The notes beneath the pieces were generated by a model. It had not been told where the DNA came from. It did not search any database and saw nothing but the letters and a program-made list of their open reading frames with translations. Source: Paenibacillus wynnii (lineage in GTDB: Bacteria > Bacillota > Bacilli > Paenibacillales > Paenibacillaceae). Taken from it: DNA of 64,000 bases. Below, in pieces: positions 57,803-64,000 of this stretch. The stretch spans positions 310,001 to 374,000 of the forward strand of contig NZ_JQCR01000003.1 in assembly GCF_000757885.1 (NCBI RefSeq), in the 5' to 3' direction. Each line of letters begins with the position of its first letter. The stretch's first letter is position 1. Position numbers and translations under genes: made by a program.

Positions 57803-57839
57803 CATAAACCTCCATGAATGAAGTGGAGGTTTATTTTTT
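57803..57839 (+). terminator. Terminator of the sugar locus
   Basis: ATAAACCTCCA pairs with TGGAGGTTTAT around a nine-base loop, followed by TTTTTTA. It marks the border with the AT-rich cluster. Confidence 0.92.
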
Positions 57840-57967
57840 ATGTTTCATATCAGAGCAAGTCAATTTTTCTCTAGAAAAGTGCGTAGTTGATCCTTCGAAT
57901 ATTAGGGAATATATAGAAATTAAGTTAAATTATAATAAATAATAAATTTAAATGTTCACTAAGTATT

Positions 57968-57998
57968 CGAAATATTTGACAAATTTTTATATATTTCG
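57968..57998 (+). promoter_or_regulatory. Inverted repeat around a consensus -35 upstream of the peptide gene
   Basis: CGAAATAT (57968-57975) and ATATTTCG (57991-57998) flank TTGACA (57976-57981). A -10 at ideal spacing is not clear. The stretch 57840-58132 is otherwise AT-rich and holds no gene; it is probably the control region of the cluster. Confidence 0.4.
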
Positions 57999-58148
57999 AC
58001 AGTAAAATACAAAATATCCCAATGTATTAAACAATGAAAAGGATTAATATATATTATCATAAATACATATTTATACATGAATTTTTAAAAAAACAATTTG
58101 TGTTTTCACGAATGATACTCATAGTTCATACGAAAGGAGGTGATAAAT

Positions 58149-58217
58149 ATGAAAAAGTATACGAAGCCCAAAGCAGTTAAAGTGCAGATTCCTGCTGCAC
58201 TTACGCATGAAGCATAA
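58149..58217 (+). CDS. Putative RiPP-like precursor peptide (22 aa)
   Basis: ATG 58149, TAA 58215-58217, with an ideal ribosome site (AAAGGAGGTG, eight-base spacing). The peptide begins MKKYTKPKAVKV and ends QIPAALTHEA. The K-K-Y-x-K-P start resembles YxxP-type leader peptides recognised by PqqD-like domains in Firmicute lasso and related RiPP systems. A hairpin follows at once, as is common after highly expressed precursor genes. The downstream genes are an intramembrane protease, exporter and modification enzymes. It is very short for leader plus core, so it could also be a signalling or leader peptide. Confidence 0.55.
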   Translation: MKKYTKPKAVKVQIPAALTHEA

Positions 58218-58233
58218 GCTGCAATAAATAGTG

Positions 58234-58266
58234 AGGTAGATGGCCGTGTATATGTCATCTACCTAC
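58234..58266 (+). terminator. Attenuating hairpin after the peptide gene
   Basis: AGGTAGATG pairs with CATCTACCT around a 13-base loop, followed by ACTATTATTAAC. The weak T tract suggests partial read-through into the operon. Confidence 0.65.
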
Positions 58267-58285
58267 TATTATTAACTTCAAATAG

Positions 58286-59041
58286 GTGATAACGATTAGT
58301 CCAAATAATTATATGAGAATTAATGAAGTGCTACAATGGCTCACTGTGCTAATTTTTTTGGTTTTCTCATTTTCGATAGGTTATGAATATTTGGATATTC
58401 TATTTTATTGGGTGCTTACTATATTAATTATTGGTAATGTCAGAAGATTATTCTATAAACCCTACGAGAATTATTTATTTGTAATTAGAAGATCACTTTA
58501 TGTTATTCCGTTTTTCTTACCTCTATTTAAAGAAGCAAAACTTGATTTCCTGAATACTGCAAGTGGGTCGTGGGTGGCTTTGGGCATCCTACTGGGTATT
58601 TCATGCATTCTTCCGAAGTGGAAAGACTGGAGAATTGCTTTGTCCAAAGATTTTATCCCTTTCAACACTTATCAAAGTTCGTGGAAGAGAGTTTATATAA
58701 TCATTATTTTATGTGCGGTTCCATTTGCTGAAGAATATTTTTTTAGATACTTCATCATTGAAACAGCTCCTTCATCAAGGATAGCACTCAATATATTTCT
58801 TAGTGCTTTCTTATTTTTTTTATCACACTATGGAACTAAATGGTCATCATCCAGTTTCAGCATATATGATTTTTTGATTCAATTTGTTTTCGGATTGTTA
58901 TCAGCTTTGTTGTTCGTTTTTTCACATTCGTTAATCCCTAGCATTTTGGCACATTTAATTTACAATTCTCCTCATGTAATAAATAACATGCTTAACATCT
59001 TGAACAACTTTAAAACCCATAAAAGTATTAAGGAGCCGTAA
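58286..59041 (+). CDS. CPBP family intramembrane metalloprotease
   Basis: About 251 residues with seven to eight predicted helices. The CPBP/Abi motifs are EExxxR (E149, E150, R154 in AEEYFFR), FxxxH (H181) and HxxxN (H223 and N227 in HLIYN). In peptide clusters such proteins act as leader peptidases, maturation proteases (as proposed for SkfC) or immunity proteins. Start is uncertain: GTG 58286 lacks a good ribosome site, ATT 58295 has AGGTG at six bases and ATG 58313 has none. The stop overlaps the ATPase start (TAATG). Confidence 0.85.
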   Translation: MITISPNNYMRINEVLQWLTVLIFLVFSFSIGYEYLDILFYWVLTILIIGNVRRLFYKPYENYLFVIRRSLYVIPFFLPLFKEAKLDFLNTASGSWVALGILLGISCILPKWKDWRIALSKDFIPFNTYQSSWKRVYIIIILCAVPFAEEYFFRYFIIETAPSSRIALNIFLSAFLFFLSHYGTKWSSSSFSIYDFLIQFVFGLLSALLFVFSHSLIPSILAHLIYNSPHVINNMLNILNNFKTHKSIKEP

Positions 59042-60006
59042 TGGATAAGATTATCGAAATTAAAAATCTTGTGAGAGATTATACAAGCTCTGGTTTTTTG
59101 AGAAAGAAAAAAGAGTCGATAAGGGCCGTAAATGATTTAAGTCTGGATATTTATCGGGGAGAAGTCTTCGGATTGCTTGGTCCAAATGGAGCTGGGAAAA
59201 CTACTACAATTAAAATTTTGACAACTTTACTGGCGCCAACTTCTGGGGAGGTACGTGTGTTAGGGTATCGCCCATTTGGGGAAGAGAAGAAAATTAGGCC
59301 TTATATTAACTTTATTTATGGAGGAGAGAGAAATCTATACTGGAGAGTTTCCGCAAGAGATAATTTGAGTTATTTCTCCGATTTGTATAAAATAGACCAC
59401 CGTCAAAAAAAGAAAAGAATTGAAGAACTCCTCGATATGGTTGGCTTGACGGACAGAGCAGATGAGAAAGTGGAGAACTATTCTAAAGGAATGAAACAAC
59501 GATTACAGATTGCCCGCGGGCTAGTCAATGATCCAGAGATTCTTTTTTTAGATGAACCTTCGATAGGATTAGATCCTTTAGGTGCCAAAGATTTGAGAGA
59601 TATCATTAAAAAACTTTCGAAAAACGGGAAAACAATAGTACTAACCACTCATTATATGTATGAAGCGGATGAGCTGTGCAATCGAATAGCCATTGTTAAC
59701 AAAGGGAGCGTGGTAGCGTTAGACAGCCCCGATAATCTCAAAAAAGTAAATATAGATTTATCTGTAATTGAAATAAGCATTGTCAATAATGTTCGTTTGG
59801 ATTTTTCTAGTTTCATTGACCATGCTCATATTCATTATATCAAGCAAGACTATTCAGAAAACTTACTTATCTTGAGAATTCAAACCAATAATCCTTCAAT
59901 CGCATTGAATGATCTGATGCCCTTTTTGAAAGGAACAATAATAGTCAATATAGAAACAAAAAAAGCAAGCCTGGAAGATGTCTATGTTAATTATGTGAGG
60001 GAATAG
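59041..60006 (+). CDS. ABC transporter ATPase (DrrA-type)
   Basis: 321 residues. Walker A GPNGAGKTTT at about 47-56, signature YSKGMKQRLQIARG, Walker B ILFLDEPS and the H-loop TTHYMYEADEL are all intact, so it is active. The C-terminal 85 residues fit the DUF4162-like extension of drug and peptide exporters. ATG overlaps the upstream stop with GGAG five bases before. It powers the two following ABC-2 permeases. Confidence 0.94.
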   Translation: MDKIIEIKNLVRDYTSSGFLRKKKESIRAVNDLSLDIYRGEVFGLLGPNGAGKTTTIKILTTLLAPTSGEVRVLGYRPFGEEKKIRPYINFIYGGERNLYWRVSARDNLSYFSDLYKIDHRQKKKRIEELLDMVGLTDRADEKVENYSKGMKQRLQIARGLVNDPEILFLDEPSIGLDPLGAKDLRDIIKKLSKNGKTIVLTTHYMYEADELCNRIAIVNKGSVVALDSPDNLKKVNIDLSVIEISIVNNVRLDFSSFIDHAHIHYIKQDYSENLLILRIQTNNPSIALNDLMPFLKGTIIVNIETKKASLEDVYVNYVRE

Positions 60007-60008
60007 CA

Positions 60009-60788
60009 ATGGAGAATATAAGAGTTATAGTTGCCAGCTTAATCTTGCATCAAAAGCAGAGTTTGTCGAGGTCTACATTTAGATTCGTAGTGTTAGTTCA
60101 ACCGATACTTTATTCCTATTTATTATTTATGATGTTTCGAAATTCAACCAGTTCGAACGTTGGAGAGCAAATAGTTCTAAGCGCAGGAATAATTAATCTA
60201 TGGAGCTCTGTTGTTTTTTCTTCTGCAGGAGATATTGATAGAGAAAGATATATGGGAACTTTAGAATTGATCTATTCAACTCCGAGTGATTTTCGAGTTA
60301 TTTTTTTAGGGAAGATCCTTGGAAATATAATACTAGGCATGTTCTCAGTAATCTTAAGTTTAATCTGTGTGGTTTTTGTTTTTGGTATTCAAATTCAGAT
60401 TGCGAATTATAGCCATTTTATTATTTCGTCTGTTGTTACAATATTATCGTTTATATCCATATCTTTATTTGCAGCAACCATGTTAACCCTATCCCGCGTT
60501 TCAGGACTTTTGATGAATTGTCTGGAATATCCAATATTTATTTTATGTGGAATCTCTTTTCCCATTAGTATTCTTCCTGAGTGGACTCGATTCTTGTCTT
60601 ATATATTACCTCCTACTTGGGCTGCACGACTATTAAGGGAAAGCATTGTGTCTGGTACCCATACACTTTTTGCAAATGACTTAATTTTCATGATAGTTCT
60701 AATTGTTTTTTATTTTTTAATTAGCATTCTGCTCTTTAAGTATATTGATATTCTGATTAGAAAAAGAGGCACATTAGGGGTGTTTTAA
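60009..60788 (+). CDS. ABC-2 type permease, subunit 1
   Basis: 259 residues with six predicted helices. The loop DIDRERYMGTLELIYSTPSDFRVIFLGK is the typical ABC-2 cytoplasmic segment after helix 2, and FPISILPEWTRFLSYILPPTWAARLLRESI is the conserved end. It starts three bases after the ATPase gene. With the next gene it forms a two-subunit exporter. Cargo unknown; the clustered peptide is the likely candidate. Confidence 0.9.
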   Translation: MENIRVIVASLILHQKQSLSRSTFRFVVLVQPILYSYLLFMMFRNSTSSNVGEQIVLSAGIINLWSSVVFSSAGDIDRERYMGTLELIYSTPSDFRVIFLGKILGNIILGMFSVILSLICVVFVFGIQIQIANYSHFIISSVVTILSFISISLFAATMLTLSRVSGLLMNCLEYPIFILCGISFPISILPEWTRFLSYILPPTWAARLLRESIVSGTHTLFANDLIFMIVLIVFYFLISILLFKYIDILIRKRGTLGVF

Positions 60789-61579
60789 TGAACTCGATAT
60801 TTTTAAGATTTGTACGCCAGTCTGTAATATCCTATAAAGCTCTTTATGGAATTATGGATATAAAAACATTCATTTTAATAAAACTCATAAACCCACTCTT
60901 TCAAATTACTTTCTTTGTTCTGCTAACCAGATATATATATAACACAGATGATTTATCCCCTTGGGTAATAAGCAACGCAATTTTGTTAAGCTGCAGCAAT
61001 GCTTTATTTGGAGTGGGTTTTATTATGATTCAAGAAAGAAGATTTGGAACATTAAAATTAGTTTTAATTACTCCCGCTAACAAGTTTTTTGTCTATATAG
61101 GCAGAACGTTCATTCATGTAGTGGATGCTATTTTGACAGTTGGTTTTGGATTGCTTTTTGGCTATGTTGCTTTCGGTGTGCAATTTAATAACACTAACCC
61201 ACTGGCATTGATTGTTGCTTTGTTGATTACTGTATTTGCTTCTGTTGGTTTTGGATTAATGCTTGGTTCCGTTGGAACAATAATTCCGGATTTGAATTTA
61301 GTGATGAATTTTTGCTATTTTTTATTGCTAATACTTAGCGGTGCACAATTTCCTATCAGTCAGCTTCCAGACATTCTGCAAAAGGTATCGTACGTCATTC
61401 CCTTGACTAGAGGAATTGAGGCAGTTCGCTTGATCGTTCAGGGAGCACGAATTATTGATGTTTCCAGCTTGTTAATAGGCGAACTTTTTTTAGGTATCAT
61501 TTTTTTTATCGCAGGGTATTTTTTTATGAGATTATTCGAAAAAATATCTATAGTAAGAGCTTCTTTGGATATTTATTAG
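60788..61579 (+). CDS. ABC-2 type permease, subunit 2
   Basis: 263 residues, six helices, related to subunit 1: IMIQERRFGTLKLVLITPANKFFVYIGR and FPISQLPDILQKVSYVIPLTRGIEAVRLI align with its matching segments. The start overlaps the previous stop (TAATG), so the two are made in equal amounts. Probable heterodimeric exporter or immunity pump. Confidence 0.9.
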   Translation: MNSIFLRFVRQSVISYKALYGIMDIKTFILIKLINPLFQITFFVLLTRYIYNTDDLSPWVISNAILLSCSNALFGVGFIMIQERRFGTLKLVLITPANKFFVYIGRTFIHVVDAILTVGFGLLFGYVAFGVQFNNTNPLALIVALLITVFASVGFGLMLGSVGTIIPDLNLVMNFCYFLLLILSGAQFPISQLPDILQKVSYVIPLTRGIEAVRLIVQGARIIDVSSLLIGELFLGIIFFIAGYFFMRLFEKISIVRASLDIY

Positions 61580-61598
61580 TAATTAAGGAGTGTGGCAA

Positions 61599-62420
61599 AT
61601 GATTGAACTGGTTCCCATATCAAAGTCTATATATAAAGCTGATATTTTGAATGTAATTACCTATAAAAATGAGGATATAGTTTTCGCTAGCGGCTCTCTT
61701 GTTCAAGGAATAGGAAATGGTAAATCGGATTTGGATCTTTTCGTTATTACACAGGATTTCAATGAAAAAGATATCAATATTACATATGATCAGTTGAATT
61801 TTAAAGTTGGGTTTAATCGCTTAGAGGGAGTTAATTGTGACATTGAATACTGGCTGCTTGATGTAGTGGAAGAATTAATTGATCAGGTTAATAGCATTGA
61901 TTTTGGAGATATAAATGTAAGGTCCTTCAACCAGCTTAAAATTAAAGGCTATAATAGTCCCGCGCTGACATCCTTTCTTCATCGTTTTATTATTAGCAAG
62001 AACATATATAATGACACAAAATATAAAGAACTATATGAAAAACTAAATAAGAACAATTATTTTAGATTAATGGCAAGAATCTATGTGAATCATGTTGATA
62101 ATGCCTACGATGATGTAGTAGGGAACTTAGAGCAACATGAATATGAAACAGCTTATCTTATAGCAAGAGAGACGTTGCTTTTAGCAATGACCGCCTATGT
62201 TTTTAGCATGAAGCAGACTATAGACAGAACCAAGTGGACTTATAAAATGATGAAAGTAATTGCGATTGAAAACCAGGAAGCAGCAAGAATTTTGAACAAG
62301 TGCAATGAAATCCTTTTCCCAGTTTCACTTTCCAAGGGTAATTTAGAAAACAGCTCAGAACAAGCTCTTTCATTAATTAACAGTATTATTTCAAGTATTA
62401 ATGATGCGGGAGGAGTATAA
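61599..62420 (+). CDS. Nucleotidyltransferase-fold protein
   Basis: 273 residues. The catalytic pattern is complete: G32-S33 in ASGSLVQGIGNGKSD, D44 and D46 in SDLDLFV, and a third acid D81 in VNCDIEYW. A helical C-terminal domain of about 150 residues follows, as in substrate-modifying nucleotidyltransferases. Clusters for phosphorylated lasso peptides in Bacillales sometimes carry such a gene, which is recalled and not checked. ATG 61599 has AAGGAG eight bases upstream; GTG 61590 is rejected. It likely modifies the peptide or a small molecule. Confidence 0.85.
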   Translation: MIELVPISKSIYKADILNVITYKNEDIVFASGSLVQGIGNGKSDLDLFVITQDFNEKDINITYDQLNFKVGFNRLEGVNCDIEYWLLDVVEELIDQVNSIDFGDINVRSFNQLKIKGYNSPALTSFLHRFIISKNIYNDTKYKELYEKLNKNNYFRLMARIYVNHVDNAYDDVVGNLEQHEYETAYLIARETLLLAMTAYVFSMKQTIDRTKWTYKMMKVIAIENQEAARILNKCNEILFPVSLSKGNLENSSEQALSLINSIISSINDAGGV

Positions 62421-62422
62421 AA

Positions 62423-62686
62423 ATGGAAATAACTTATAAAAAAAATCTGAACTTTCGAGTCAGAATGATAGCTAAACAGGTTTTGTTGTTTGGTGAATCT
62501 TCTGCTTATCAACTTAATGATACTGGGAATTTAATCTGGAATGAATTAGATAGTGTGAAAACTATTGATGAGATTCTGAACTCTATAAAATCCCAATATG
62601 AAGATTTATCTGTAAATTATGAAAAGGATGTACTTGAATTTCTTGATTTTTTGTTGGGAATAAATGCAATCAAAATTTCAAATTAA
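62423..62686 (+). CDS. PqqD-like protein (RiPP recognition element)
   Basis: 87 residues, the normal PqqD/lasso B1 size. The strands (VRMIAKQVLLFGESSAYQLNDTGNLIWNEL, in parts) and helices (TIDEILNSIKSQYED, VLEFLDFLLGINAI) follow the PqqD winged-helix: beta-hairpin, conserved ALNxTGxxIW-like YQLNDTGNLIW, then acidic helix. Such domains bind the leader peptide and present it to modifying enzymes. ATG with GAGGAG upstream, two bases after the previous stop. This is the strongest sign that the cluster makes a modified peptide. Confidence 0.82.
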   Translation: MEITYKKNLNFRVRMIAKQVLLFGESSAYQLNDTGNLIWNELDSVKTIDEILNSIKSQYEDLSVNYEKDVLEFLDFLLGINAIKISN

Positions 62687-62722
62687 CAAATTTGTGTATC
62701 AATCTGGAAGGAGGAGATCGAG

Positions 62723-63202
62723 ATCAGTATTACACTTATTATGCTTAAACCGGATGCCCTAGAAAGAAATCTTGTATATCCTATCTTCAATATATTGCTG
62801 CAAAGTGGATTAATTCTCTCTGCCCTGAATCTTACAGTGGCTACTTCTAAAATAATAACTCAGCATTATAATAAGCAAATCGTTATTGGTGGCCAGCATT
62901 CATTAGATAGAATGAATGACTATTATATTGGTAAACCTGTTCTTGTTTCAATATTTGAGGGAGACGGGGCTATTAACAAGGCTAGAAAAATGATAGGTAA
63001 TACTGACCCTGCTAAATCATCTCCTGGTACCATTCGTGGAGATTGGGGAATAGATTCATTTGAAGCAGCTGATTATGAACATCGAAGCTGTAGAAACCTC
63101 ATACATGGTTCAGACACTTTGGATAATTCAATAAGAGAAATAAAATTATGGTTTCCAGACTATCCGATTGAAAACTATGTATCTACCCAAGGAGAAAAGT
63201 AA
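62723..63202 (+). CDS. Nucleoside diphosphate kinase-like protein, probable non-ATG start
   Basis: About 159 residues. LIMLKPDALERN, GNTDPAKSSPGTIRGDWGID and the active-site RNLIHGSD (His about 128) are all family consensus, so the phospho-histidine chemistry should work. About ten residues are inserted before RNLIHGSD. The first ATG (62741) would cut off beta-strand 1; ATC at 62723 has AGGAGG at exactly eight bases and gives MSITLIMLKPD, matching other NDKs. It sits in a peptide cluster, not with housekeeping genes, so a role in peptide tailoring or NTP supply is inferred. Confidence 0.8.
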   Translation: MSITLIMLKPDALERNLVYPIFNILLQSGLILSALNLTVATSKIITQHYNKQIVIGGQHSLDRMNDYYIGKPVLVSIFEGDGAINKARKMIGNTDPAKSSPGTIRGDWGIDSFEAADYEHRSCRNLIHGSDTLDNSIREIKLWFPDYPIENYVSTQGEK

Positions 63203-64000
63203 TGAATATAGAGTACAGATTTTCACAAGTGGAATATGAACAATACCTACATTCATTGAAACAATATTTTAATGAACTGGAAATAGAGTGCGAACAGAAT
63301 AGCGACCATATCTACTTTCAAATTACACGGCAGTATGCAACTGAACTTCAGGCTTATCTCGGAGATAAATTATTCAGCAAGAGTTCAAATCAGAAATCGA
63401 TATTGTCTTCCAGTGATAGAAGGGCCACAAAATATCTTGATTTTGTTGAAGCCTATAGGTTGGTGAGATATCAATATTCCAGATATGGACAGTTTAAGCG
63501 TTCTTATACGGAGGCTGTGTACTCTTCTTTTATAGCTGAAGTATTACGGTATATGCATGAGCATGTACATTCCCCGCTGCATATTATGGATGCAGGCTGT
63601 GGGCCTTCCCGGCTTTCATATGAATTTTCAACTATTTTTCACAATGCACAAATTGATTTAATTGATTATTCCATTATCAACTTATTTTTTGCTTGGAGGC
63701 TCATCTCCAGCGGTAAGGATGTTAGTGTTCCTTATCGAATCTTTAACGACAATTGGAAAGAAGATGGCGATGATACTGGATTATTGCATATCAAAGCCAA
63801 GAACAATACCAATACCAATTTGATAATAGCCGATTTATCCAGCCTGCAATGGAAACAACCAATAGCTCTATATGATTTAGTAGTTTCAAACCATGCGCTA
63901 AATTTGTTGCACAATCCTAAACAAGTAATCGAATCACTAATTGATCAGGTGAAGACGGGAGGGTTTATAATTATCTCCGATTTATTGGGCTGGAAAGAAA
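63202..64000 (+). CDS. SAM-dependent methyltransferase, 3' end cut by window
   Basis: ATG at 63202-63204 overlaps the NDK stop (TAATG); the frame is open to base 64000 for 266 codons. Residues 127-138 read HIMDAGCGPSRL, the SAM-binding loop; later come YDLVVSNHALNLLHNPKQVIESL and VKTGGFIIISDLLGW, the usual motif II/III region. The first 120 residues are an extra charged, Tyr-rich domain (QYSRYGQFKRSYTEAVYSSF) possibly for substrate docking. It may methylate the peptide or a nucleotide-derived group. The C-terminus is unknown. Confidence 0.82.
   Translation, partial: MNIEYRFSQVEYEQYLHSLKQYFNELEIECEQNSDHIYFQITRQYATELQAYLGDKLFSKSSNQKSILSSSDRRATKYLDFVEAYRLVRYQYSRYGQFKRSYTEAVYSSFIAEVLRYMHEHVHSPLHIMDAGCGPSRLSYEFSTIFHNAQIDLIDYSIINLFFAWRLISSGKDVSVPYRIFNDNWKEDGDDTGLLHIKAKNNTNTNLIIADLSSLQWKQPIALYDLVVSNHALNLLHNPKQVIESLIDQVKTGGFIIISDLLGWKE

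Follow-up and report, generated by a model that had tools for sequence, protein, structure and literature searches.

The 64,000-nucleotide stretch of Paenibacillus wynnii DNA analyzed here (the window; G000:C3:310001-374000) closes with the first half of a compact cluster that encodes a tiny peptide, an exporter, a nucleotidyltransferase (NTase) and a PqqD-like protein, followed by tailoring enzymes. Ahead of it stands a terminator-like hairpin with a T-run (57804..57834, plus strand; one found against a shuffle mean of 0.1), and the first gene is a 22-codon open reading frame (ORF; 58149..58217) that is preceded by AAAGGAGGTGA, has a strong Shine-Dalgarno sequence and encodes the precursor peptide MKKYTKPKAVKVQIPAALTHEA; the cluster thus starts at 58149 and not at 57840, as the first-pass annotation had placed it. 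The peptide gene is followed on the same strand by a CPBP/Rce1-type intramembrane protease (58286..59041; PF02517, 51.6 bits), an ATP-binding cassette (ABC) exporter ATPase (59041..60006; PF00005, 106.6 bits), two ABC-2 permeases (60009..60788 and 60788..61579; both PF01061), the NTase (61599..62420), a PqqD-like peptide-binding protein, the predicted recognition element (RRE) of a ribosomally synthesized and post-translationally modified peptide (RiPP) (62423..62686), a nucleoside diphosphate kinase (NDK; 62723..63202; PF00334, 99 bits) and an S-adenosylmethionine (SAM) methyltransferase that is cut by the window end (63202..64000) and closes at window-equivalent position 64176 (L004 coordinate + 54000). 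The hidden Markov model (HMM) matches, the GC content (33% for 57840-64000 against 45.5% for 1-57800) and the hairpin agree with the gene list, gene order, strand and AT-rich setting after a terminator that were first proposed, and one spacing needs a small correction: the peptide and CPBP genes are 68 bases apart, above the limit of about 40 bases first proposed. Genes without an HMM call were named by sight reading.

The operon runs about 5 kb past the window edge with six more genes, for a B12-type radical SAM protein (64193-65413), a FomB-like kinase (65421-66446), a second radical SAM protein of putative SPL-like type (66464-67543), a HAD protein (67536-68081), a DUF1450 protein with a CxxxCxxC motif (68038-68286) and a second HAD protein, HAD2 (68327-68989; all window-equivalent coordinates). 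The first-pass annotation had advised checking the DNA beyond 64000 for a radical SAM protein, YcaO, a lasso cyclase or a B2-type protease; it holds two radical SAM proteins, and neither a lasso cyclase nor a B2 protease was found near the cluster. The second half of the cluster has a GC content of 34%, and the flanking DNA beyond it 46%, so the low GC of both halves relative to their surroundings fits acquisition as one unit. Mannosidase-like glycosidase fragments lie immediately past the cluster (L004:15028-16159) and are perhaps a decayed gene bordering the insertion.

The core of the cluster is conserved as a unit in a small number of other genomes. Loci were sought through the NTase rather than the peptide, and each was afterwards inspected for small ORFs. 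A protein search detected the NTase in 7 of 245 genomes of the same GTDB family, and a profile search in 10 of 394; in a phylum sample the profile matched 1 of 398 genomes, the P. wynnii genome itself and no other, and a wider profile matched 6 of 398 genomes of a class sample, three of them previously unseen (G834, G1013, and G971). Fifteen NTase loci were read, and 12 of them have PqqD; those of G107, G971 and a Neorhizobium plasmid gave no PqqD match and are counted apart. The HMMs that scored the loci, including that for thymidylate kinase, were built in part from the loci they score. By these HMMs CPBP is present in all 12 PqqD-type loci, and each also has an exporter, as in microcin C-type clusters, either of ABC type (window, G263, G231, G101, G234, G834, and G1013) or of major facilitator superfamily (MFS) type (G251, G049, G140, a Parageobacillus plasmid and, about 5 kb downstream of the core, G242). 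Both CPBP and a peptide with the Y-x-x-P-K motif described below are missing from the three NTase loci that lack PqqD. In G263 and G231 the order peptide-CPBP-ABC-permease-permease-NTase-PqqD is kept, with an ABC ATPase 59% identical to that of the window. Homologues in other genomes are clustered, as had been anticipated, with peptide, CPBP, NTase and PqqD kept together. In G1013, one cluster holds two NTase-PqqD pairs and a third PqqD (L066, G1013:C5:86000-105000); no tiny peptide of its own was found for the second pair. A rare cluster family with a constant core of peptide, PqqD, NTase, CPBP and exporter is thus well supported by gene content and core conservation, both obtained by computation, as were the peptide family and the module swapping described below. 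The family is apparently undescribed: the literature searched, which covered few subscription papers and bioRxiv preprints, held no description of this gene set, a literature search pairing PqqD with thymidylate kinase found nothing, and the accessible portions of papers on PqqD and nucleotidyltransferases concern lasso clusters or unrelated genes.

The tiny peptides themselves form a family. All 12 PqqD-type loci hold a peptide of 18-24 residues with an invariant Y-x-x-P-K, so that a short precursor accompanies PqqD throughout, as in RRE-dependent RiPP clusters; in an alignment of ten of the twelve known peptides, M, Y, P, and K are invariant. Clear homologues of the window peptide, whose C-terminus reads THEA, occur in G263 (MKYVAPKAVEIKLPAALAVESLPY) and G231 (MKKYNKPKATEIKIPAALMHEQ). 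Peptides of 18-22 residues lie near PqqD in G242, G101, G234, G251, G049, and G140, and the Parageobacillus plasmid, found by tblastn, also has one, which the motif search missed because of a longer upstream start, again in a repeat run, and which was spotted by eye. A Shine-Dalgarno-like sequence precedes all ten first-found peptides. As the motif had been derived from the first peptides, the unchanged motif search was then tried on further genomes. With the motif already fixed, the remaining 2 of the 12 peptides came from the newly found genomes G834 (MYKAPKLVAVKGVAGMINA) and G1013 (MYKAPKLKSVKLLAGMENA), one in each and both located between NTase and PqqD; other reading frames fill about 1.5 kb between NTase and peptide in G834. 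The same search gave no Y-x-x-P-K peptide in G971, which is also without PqqD. Tails are of PAAL type (window, G263, and G231), ASQK-x type (G251, G049, and G140) or GM-x-N-x type (G101 and G234, joined by G242 on the basis of identity, where the tree support is weak), and they follow the NTase relationships, not the module. Y-x-x-P is a characterized motif through which the leaders of lasso peptides are recognized by the RRE (accessible text of PMC12710340), and the peptides therefore look like PqqD ligands carrying a short tail.

The NTase resembles enzymes that act on small acceptors. Its Pfam match is sub-threshold only; the GSxxxGxGNxxSDxD motif is intact, and in the NTase alignments this pattern is invariant (partly variable at x), together with one more Asp. 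A fold search with its AlphaFold model (predicted local distance difference test score, pLDDT, 85) returned 14 matches at E up to 0.001 with TM-scores of 0.42-0.61, and the nearest folds, of aminoglycoside/lincosamide-NTase type, are the nucleotidyltransferase-like protein 3c18, LinB, and the kanamycin/aminoglycoside 4'-nucleotidyltransferases (KNTase/ANT4). Enzymes with such folds transfer a nucleotide from a nucleoside triphosphate to a small acceptor. The PqqD-like call of the first-pass annotation is upheld by PF05402 (46.6 bits, cut-off 23.4). The NDK gene has a good Shine-Dalgarno sequence, yet no ATG, GTG, or TTG where NDKs usually begin (62708-62743); ATC at 62723 (or ATT at 62729) would give a normal N-terminus, ISITLIMLKPDA, and the first ATG is at 62741, so that a rare start codon (ATC or ATT) or a sequence error is probable. 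A second NDK elsewhere in the genome scores higher than that of the cluster (185.6 against 104.8 bits), and a dedicated cluster NDK in a genome that already has a better-scoring one suggests a special substrate.

The modules beside the core vary between clusters, yet they often handle nucleotides or phosphates. Thymidylate-kinase-like proteins occur in 7 of the 12 PqqD-type loci, all seven also above the Pfam cut-off, and at least one radical SAM protein was matched by HMM in six clusters (window, G263, G231, G101, G251, and G049). The window, G263, and G231 share one tail type and carry three different modules: that of G263 pairs a thymidylate-kinase-like protein with a radical SAM protein matching the 'variant_rSAM' model, and that of G231 comprises a MoaA-like radical SAM protein (206.7 bits, cut-off 284), a histidine phosphatase and a weak HprK-related match (34.3 bits, cut-off 200) without a Pfam match. 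Two thymidylate-synthase-like and two thymidylate-kinase-like proteins, a NUDIX hydrolase and a CYTH domain accompany the core in G1013, and G242 has an inositol-monophosphatase-like protein and an AICAR-transformylase domain besides its thymidylate-kinase-like protein. G234 has divergently oriented LarC- and LarB-type genes together with a PP-loop protein, likewise divergent, which we take to be LarE. A flavoprotein and three radical SAM proteins are found in G101, a radical SAM protein and U32-peptidase-family proteins in each of G251 and G049, and a pyruvate-kinase-barrel protein, a pyridoxal-phosphate-dependent decarboxylase, a CYTH protein and a histidine phosphatase in G140. The Parageobacillus plasmid is annotated with a HAD hydrolase, a myo-inositol-1-phosphate synthase and a methionine adenosyltransferase, and G834 shows transposase-like genes and no recognized module on sight reading.

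Parts of the window's own module recur in other gene company. Its FomB-like kinase is, to judge from its sequence, a distant relative of FomB that lies below the equivalog score (185 bits over residues 12-327 of 341, family cut-off 400). The second radical SAM protein has a CxxxCxxC motif and a weak PA0069 match (16.4 bits) and may be related to spore photoproduct lyase (SPL); its AlphaFold model (pLDDT 42) is too poor for use. Sequence searches of the PDB with these two proteins gave chance-level matches only. A fosfomycin or phosphonate pathway was rejected, as the FomB and PhpK-like scores are far below their cut-offs; no phosphoenolpyruvate mutase was seen among the cluster proteins, the genome not having been searched for one. 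The B12-type radical SAM probe matched 2 of 394 family genomes at E up to 1e-20 and, among genome contigs, seven loci, of which only L009 is close; L010-L015 were examined by the small-ORF regular expression alone. L009 is from a Lachnospira metagenome-assembled genome (MAG), where a methyltransferase, a B12-type radical SAM protein (56% identical), a FomB-like kinase, a cut second radical SAM protein and both HAD proteins stand together; neither PqqD nor NTase was found in this assembly, and MAGs can be incomplete. G295 has a radical SAM pair 29-31% and 68% identical to that of the window, with HAD and DUF1450 fused. These genes keep company with an NTP_transf_5 protein, a relative of class II (D/K/N) tRNA synthetases and a thymidylate-kinase-like protein; a tRNA-synthetase-core protein, a carrier-protein domain, an ATP-grasp protein, a class III aminotransferase and ABC exporters are found upstream. 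The one PqqD match in the G295 genome lies on the contig at a distance of about 3 Mb, the NTase profile has no match there, and the methyltransferase, the FomB-like kinase and the second HAD are missing from the match list. This locus (L016) appears to be a non-RiPP relative; its proteins include one of lysyl-tRNA synthetase (LysRS) type, and about 7 kb downstream another ORF has a LysRS-like N-terminus (only the OB-fold matched).

The plasmid-borne relatives of the two kinase and radical SAM families often stand in nucleotide company. Among four inspected plasmid records (of 36) with relatives of the second radical SAM protein, the two from Streptomyces place them next to an NDK, a thymidylate synthase, an exonuclease and a P-loop protein. 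FomB relatives, inspected in two of three plasmid records, adjoin a cytidylyltransferase and NUDIX (Streptomyces) or MazG, HisG, and AIR-synthase-related genes (Leptospira). From these neighborhoods, both tailoring families appear to be often associated with nucleotides. The Streptomyces plasmids share a conserved cassette (L045:5815-11066 and L046:5835-11054) of thymidylate synthase, double NDK, radical SAM protein, 3'-5' exonuclease, P-loop protein and aldo/keto reductase, which resembles an orphan nucleotide pathway.

We propose that the cluster has two halves, a reading to which we give an even chance: a constant peptide core would be joined to a nucleotide-type group made by the tailoring module, and the peptide-nucleotide conjugate would be exported. 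The methyltransferase, the two radical SAM enzymes and the HAD proteins would make an unusual nucleoside phosphate, with DUF1450 as a possible Fe-S partner within the module. The FomB-like kinase may then lift the nucleotide to a diphosphate by adding phosphate onto phosphate, as FomB converts fosfomycin monophosphate to the diphosphate (accessible text of PMC4790336), and the NDK would make the triphosphate; NTases of such fold usually take donors of this kind. PqqD would bind the ribosomal carrier peptide of 18-24 residues through Y-x-x-P and present it to the NTase, which would move the nucleotide part onto it; CPBP may trim the conjugate or confer immunity, and the ABC transporter would export it. 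Such a peptide-nucleotide conjugate would probably be secreted to act as a Trojan-horse antibiotic. Gene company points to a nucleotide payload, and from it we infer the nucleotide nature of the donor; the attachment site, the role of CPBP and the activity are likewise put forward as predictions. The broader proposal, that such clusters form a modular family of Trojan horses built from ribosomal peptides and nucleotides, in which a constant carrier of 18-24 residues and its PqqD-dependent, aminoglycoside-NTase-like conjugating enzyme have been equipped over evolution with interchangeable rare-nucleotide or sugar-phosphate pathways, the window's running through two radical SAM enzymes, is held more tentatively, at somewhat less than an even chance.

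Several observations weigh against the proposed conjugate. No aminoacyl-tRNA synthetase or MccF relative was seen in the window cluster. Thymidylate-kinase-like proteins are absent from the stretches read in the window, G231, G140, G834, and Parageobacillus, and proteins of the Thymidylate_kin family need not all be nucleotide kinases. The divergent Lar and kinase genes of G234 may form a separate operon, and the pyruvate-kinase-barrel protein and inositol-phosphate synthase carried by G140 and Parageobacillus suggest phosphate or sugar modules instead of strictly nucleotide ones. Of the window module, G295 holds only the radical SAM pair, HAD, and DUF1450. In the Lachnospira copy (L009:9158-12656) the methyltransferase is split over two frames and the second radical SAM protein has only about 145 residues, an apparently partly broken state that may reflect decay or assembly error. 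In Rhizobium and Nostoc plasmids, relatives of the second radical SAM protein stand beside an exonuclease and an AAA ATPase or an AAA ATPase alone, which ties them less strongly to nucleotides. Finally, G251 and G049 are alike in both tail and module type and cannot separate the two.

The foremost alternative is a RiPP in which the radical SAM, methyltransferase and kinase enzymes act on the residues of the peptide itself and the NTase attaches a tag, for instance adenosine monophosphate. PqqD-like proteins do guide RiPP enzymes (accessible portions of PMC7470986 and PMC12710340), and half of the PqqD-type clusters (6 of 12) include a radical SAM protein. We nevertheless consider it unlikely. 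Two genomes, the Lachnospira MAG and G295, hold parts of the window module in clusters that lack PqqD and this NTase, a single tail type is combined with three modules, and several modules consist of small-molecule enzymes (LarB/LarC-type proteins, thymidylate synthase, inositol-phosphate synthase, an AICAR-transformylase domain). The first-pass annotation had taken all tailoring enzymes to modify the peptide; that view is unsupported in this form, since module parts exist without PqqD and other cores carry quite different modules, and a better fit is a constant peptide core to which a module for a small molecule (nucleotide) has been added.

Marginally less probable again is a recycled scaffold, with a small molecule built or held on the C-terminus of the peptide and then cut off. 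Scaffolds of this kind are found in peptide aminoacyl-tRNA ligase (PEARL)-type pathways, PqqA, and the carrier LysW. Such a role would suit the extreme shortness of the peptides, which combine a conserved motif at the N-terminus with a brief, variable tail and whose penultimate residue is Asn (6), Lys (3), or Glu (2) in 11 of 12 cases and Pro in one, and CPBP, present in 12 of 12 loci, could release the product. An exporter in every locus, though about 5 kb from the core in G242, speaks against it, and no ATP-grasp or PEARL-type match was obtained among the window cluster proteins.

That the small ORFs encode regulatory leader peptides or arose by chance, and are not precursor genes, is very improbable. 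Short ORFs are common, an inverted repeat lies 3' of the window ORF (sight reading), and a look-alike without a Shine-Dalgarno sequence, MKYTQPQLYIYRIDRPS, was found on the opposite strand of L026, which has no PqqD. Against this stand the four invariant residues of the ten aligned peptides and the codon differences in four related pairs, which have 6, 4, 5, and 7 synonymous differences beside 7, 4, 4, and 5 amino-acid changes. In addition, a search for the motif with a Shine-Dalgarno sequence in 28 sources (513 kb, with 10 kb of window/L004 overlap counted twice) found nine family peptides and no match outside core loci, and its control, ten triplet shuffles of ten sources, gave one match. 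The 22-residue window peptide is a real gene.

Least probable of all is a decayed or unusual lasso cluster of the phosphorylated or phosphoglycosylated Bacillota type (paeninodin, pseudomycoidin), which would share the kinase and NTase logic (accessible text of PMC8498205), the PqqD-type B1 protein and the Y-x-x-P leader motif (accessible text of PMC7533575 and PMC12710340) and would suit the weak lasso_PqqD_Bac match of the window PqqD (29.2 bits, cut-off 80), but which is at odds with the added CPBP, with a much shorter peptide whose 22 residues leave scant room for leader and core, a short form kept in all 12 clusters, and with a genome search that placed the sole B2-type match at C2:1.18 Mb, next to one of three matches to the Asn-synthase family, and none of these in or near the cluster. 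The lasso reading was rejected on these last matches. A separate lasso-type cluster with Asn-synthase-family, HprK-like, PqqD, and B2-type proteins is present elsewhere in the genome (G000:C2:1179276-1182394; L001, L051, and L055).

Among known systems, microcin C offers the closest parallel to the proposed peptide-nucleotide conjugate. Its clusters unite a nucleotidyltransferase and an exporter with a very short peptide of ribosomal origin and with accessory enzymes that decorate the nucleotide (accessible text of PMC9239234), a set that the window cluster resembles. The window cluster differs in the aminoglycoside/lincosamide-NTase-like fold of its NTase, with no ThiF match among the proteins scanned, in the presence of PqqD and CPBP, and in a terminal peptide residue that is not Asn. 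As the ThiF-like enzyme and the terminal Asn are missing, the cluster is not a microcin C member. The 4'-thiothymidine (thmABC) and albomycin pathways, the latter leading to a thionucleoside inhibitor of tRNA synthetase, are similar by description in having a radical SAM enzyme and a nucleoside kinase, and differ in that the accessible text of PMC12691670 mentions no ribosomal peptide for them. Pyrroloquinoline quinone (PQQ) biosynthesis shares a tiny precursor and a PqqD-family protein; the window PqqD, however, is below the PQQ equivalog cut-off (32.5 against 46 bits), and of the two radical SAM proteins of the cluster one is of B12 type and one of another family. A PQQ-like reading was rejected, since no PqqE, PqqB, or PqqC match was found among the window cluster proteins scanned.

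The NTase family extends to loci outside the PqqD type. In G971 (L067, G971:C2:72000-90000), the NTase relative stands with an S66 peptidase that finds its best matches in the PDB among MccF structures, a further likeness to microcin C, and with ATP-grasp proteins, a thymidylate-kinase-like protein, an MFS-like protein and a second alanyl-tRNA synthetase (AlaRS; 471 bits), the genome's longer copy being on another contig; an additional weak AlaRS-like match lies at C2:73532. The company of an MccF-like peptidase, a second AlaRS and ATP-grasp suggests a Trojan-horse role, and this may be an AlaRS-directed peptidyl-nucleotide cluster. L026 (G107:C67:428000-447900) has an NTase relative without PqqD, together with GTP cyclohydrolase I, a PTPS/QueD-type protein, an NDK-like protein and a radical SAM protein read as QueE, and is possibly a deazapurine cluster.

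If the proposed conjugate is correct, the family would represent a new route, independent of ThiF-like MccB, for joining ribosomal peptides to nucleotides, and the combination of NTase, PqqD, CPBP, and a Y-x-x-P-K micro-ORF would provide a simple genomic handle on clusters with differing payload pathways. The family may also supply new nucleotide payloads for peptide antibiotics. The substrates of several orphan radical SAM families would then become directly testable.

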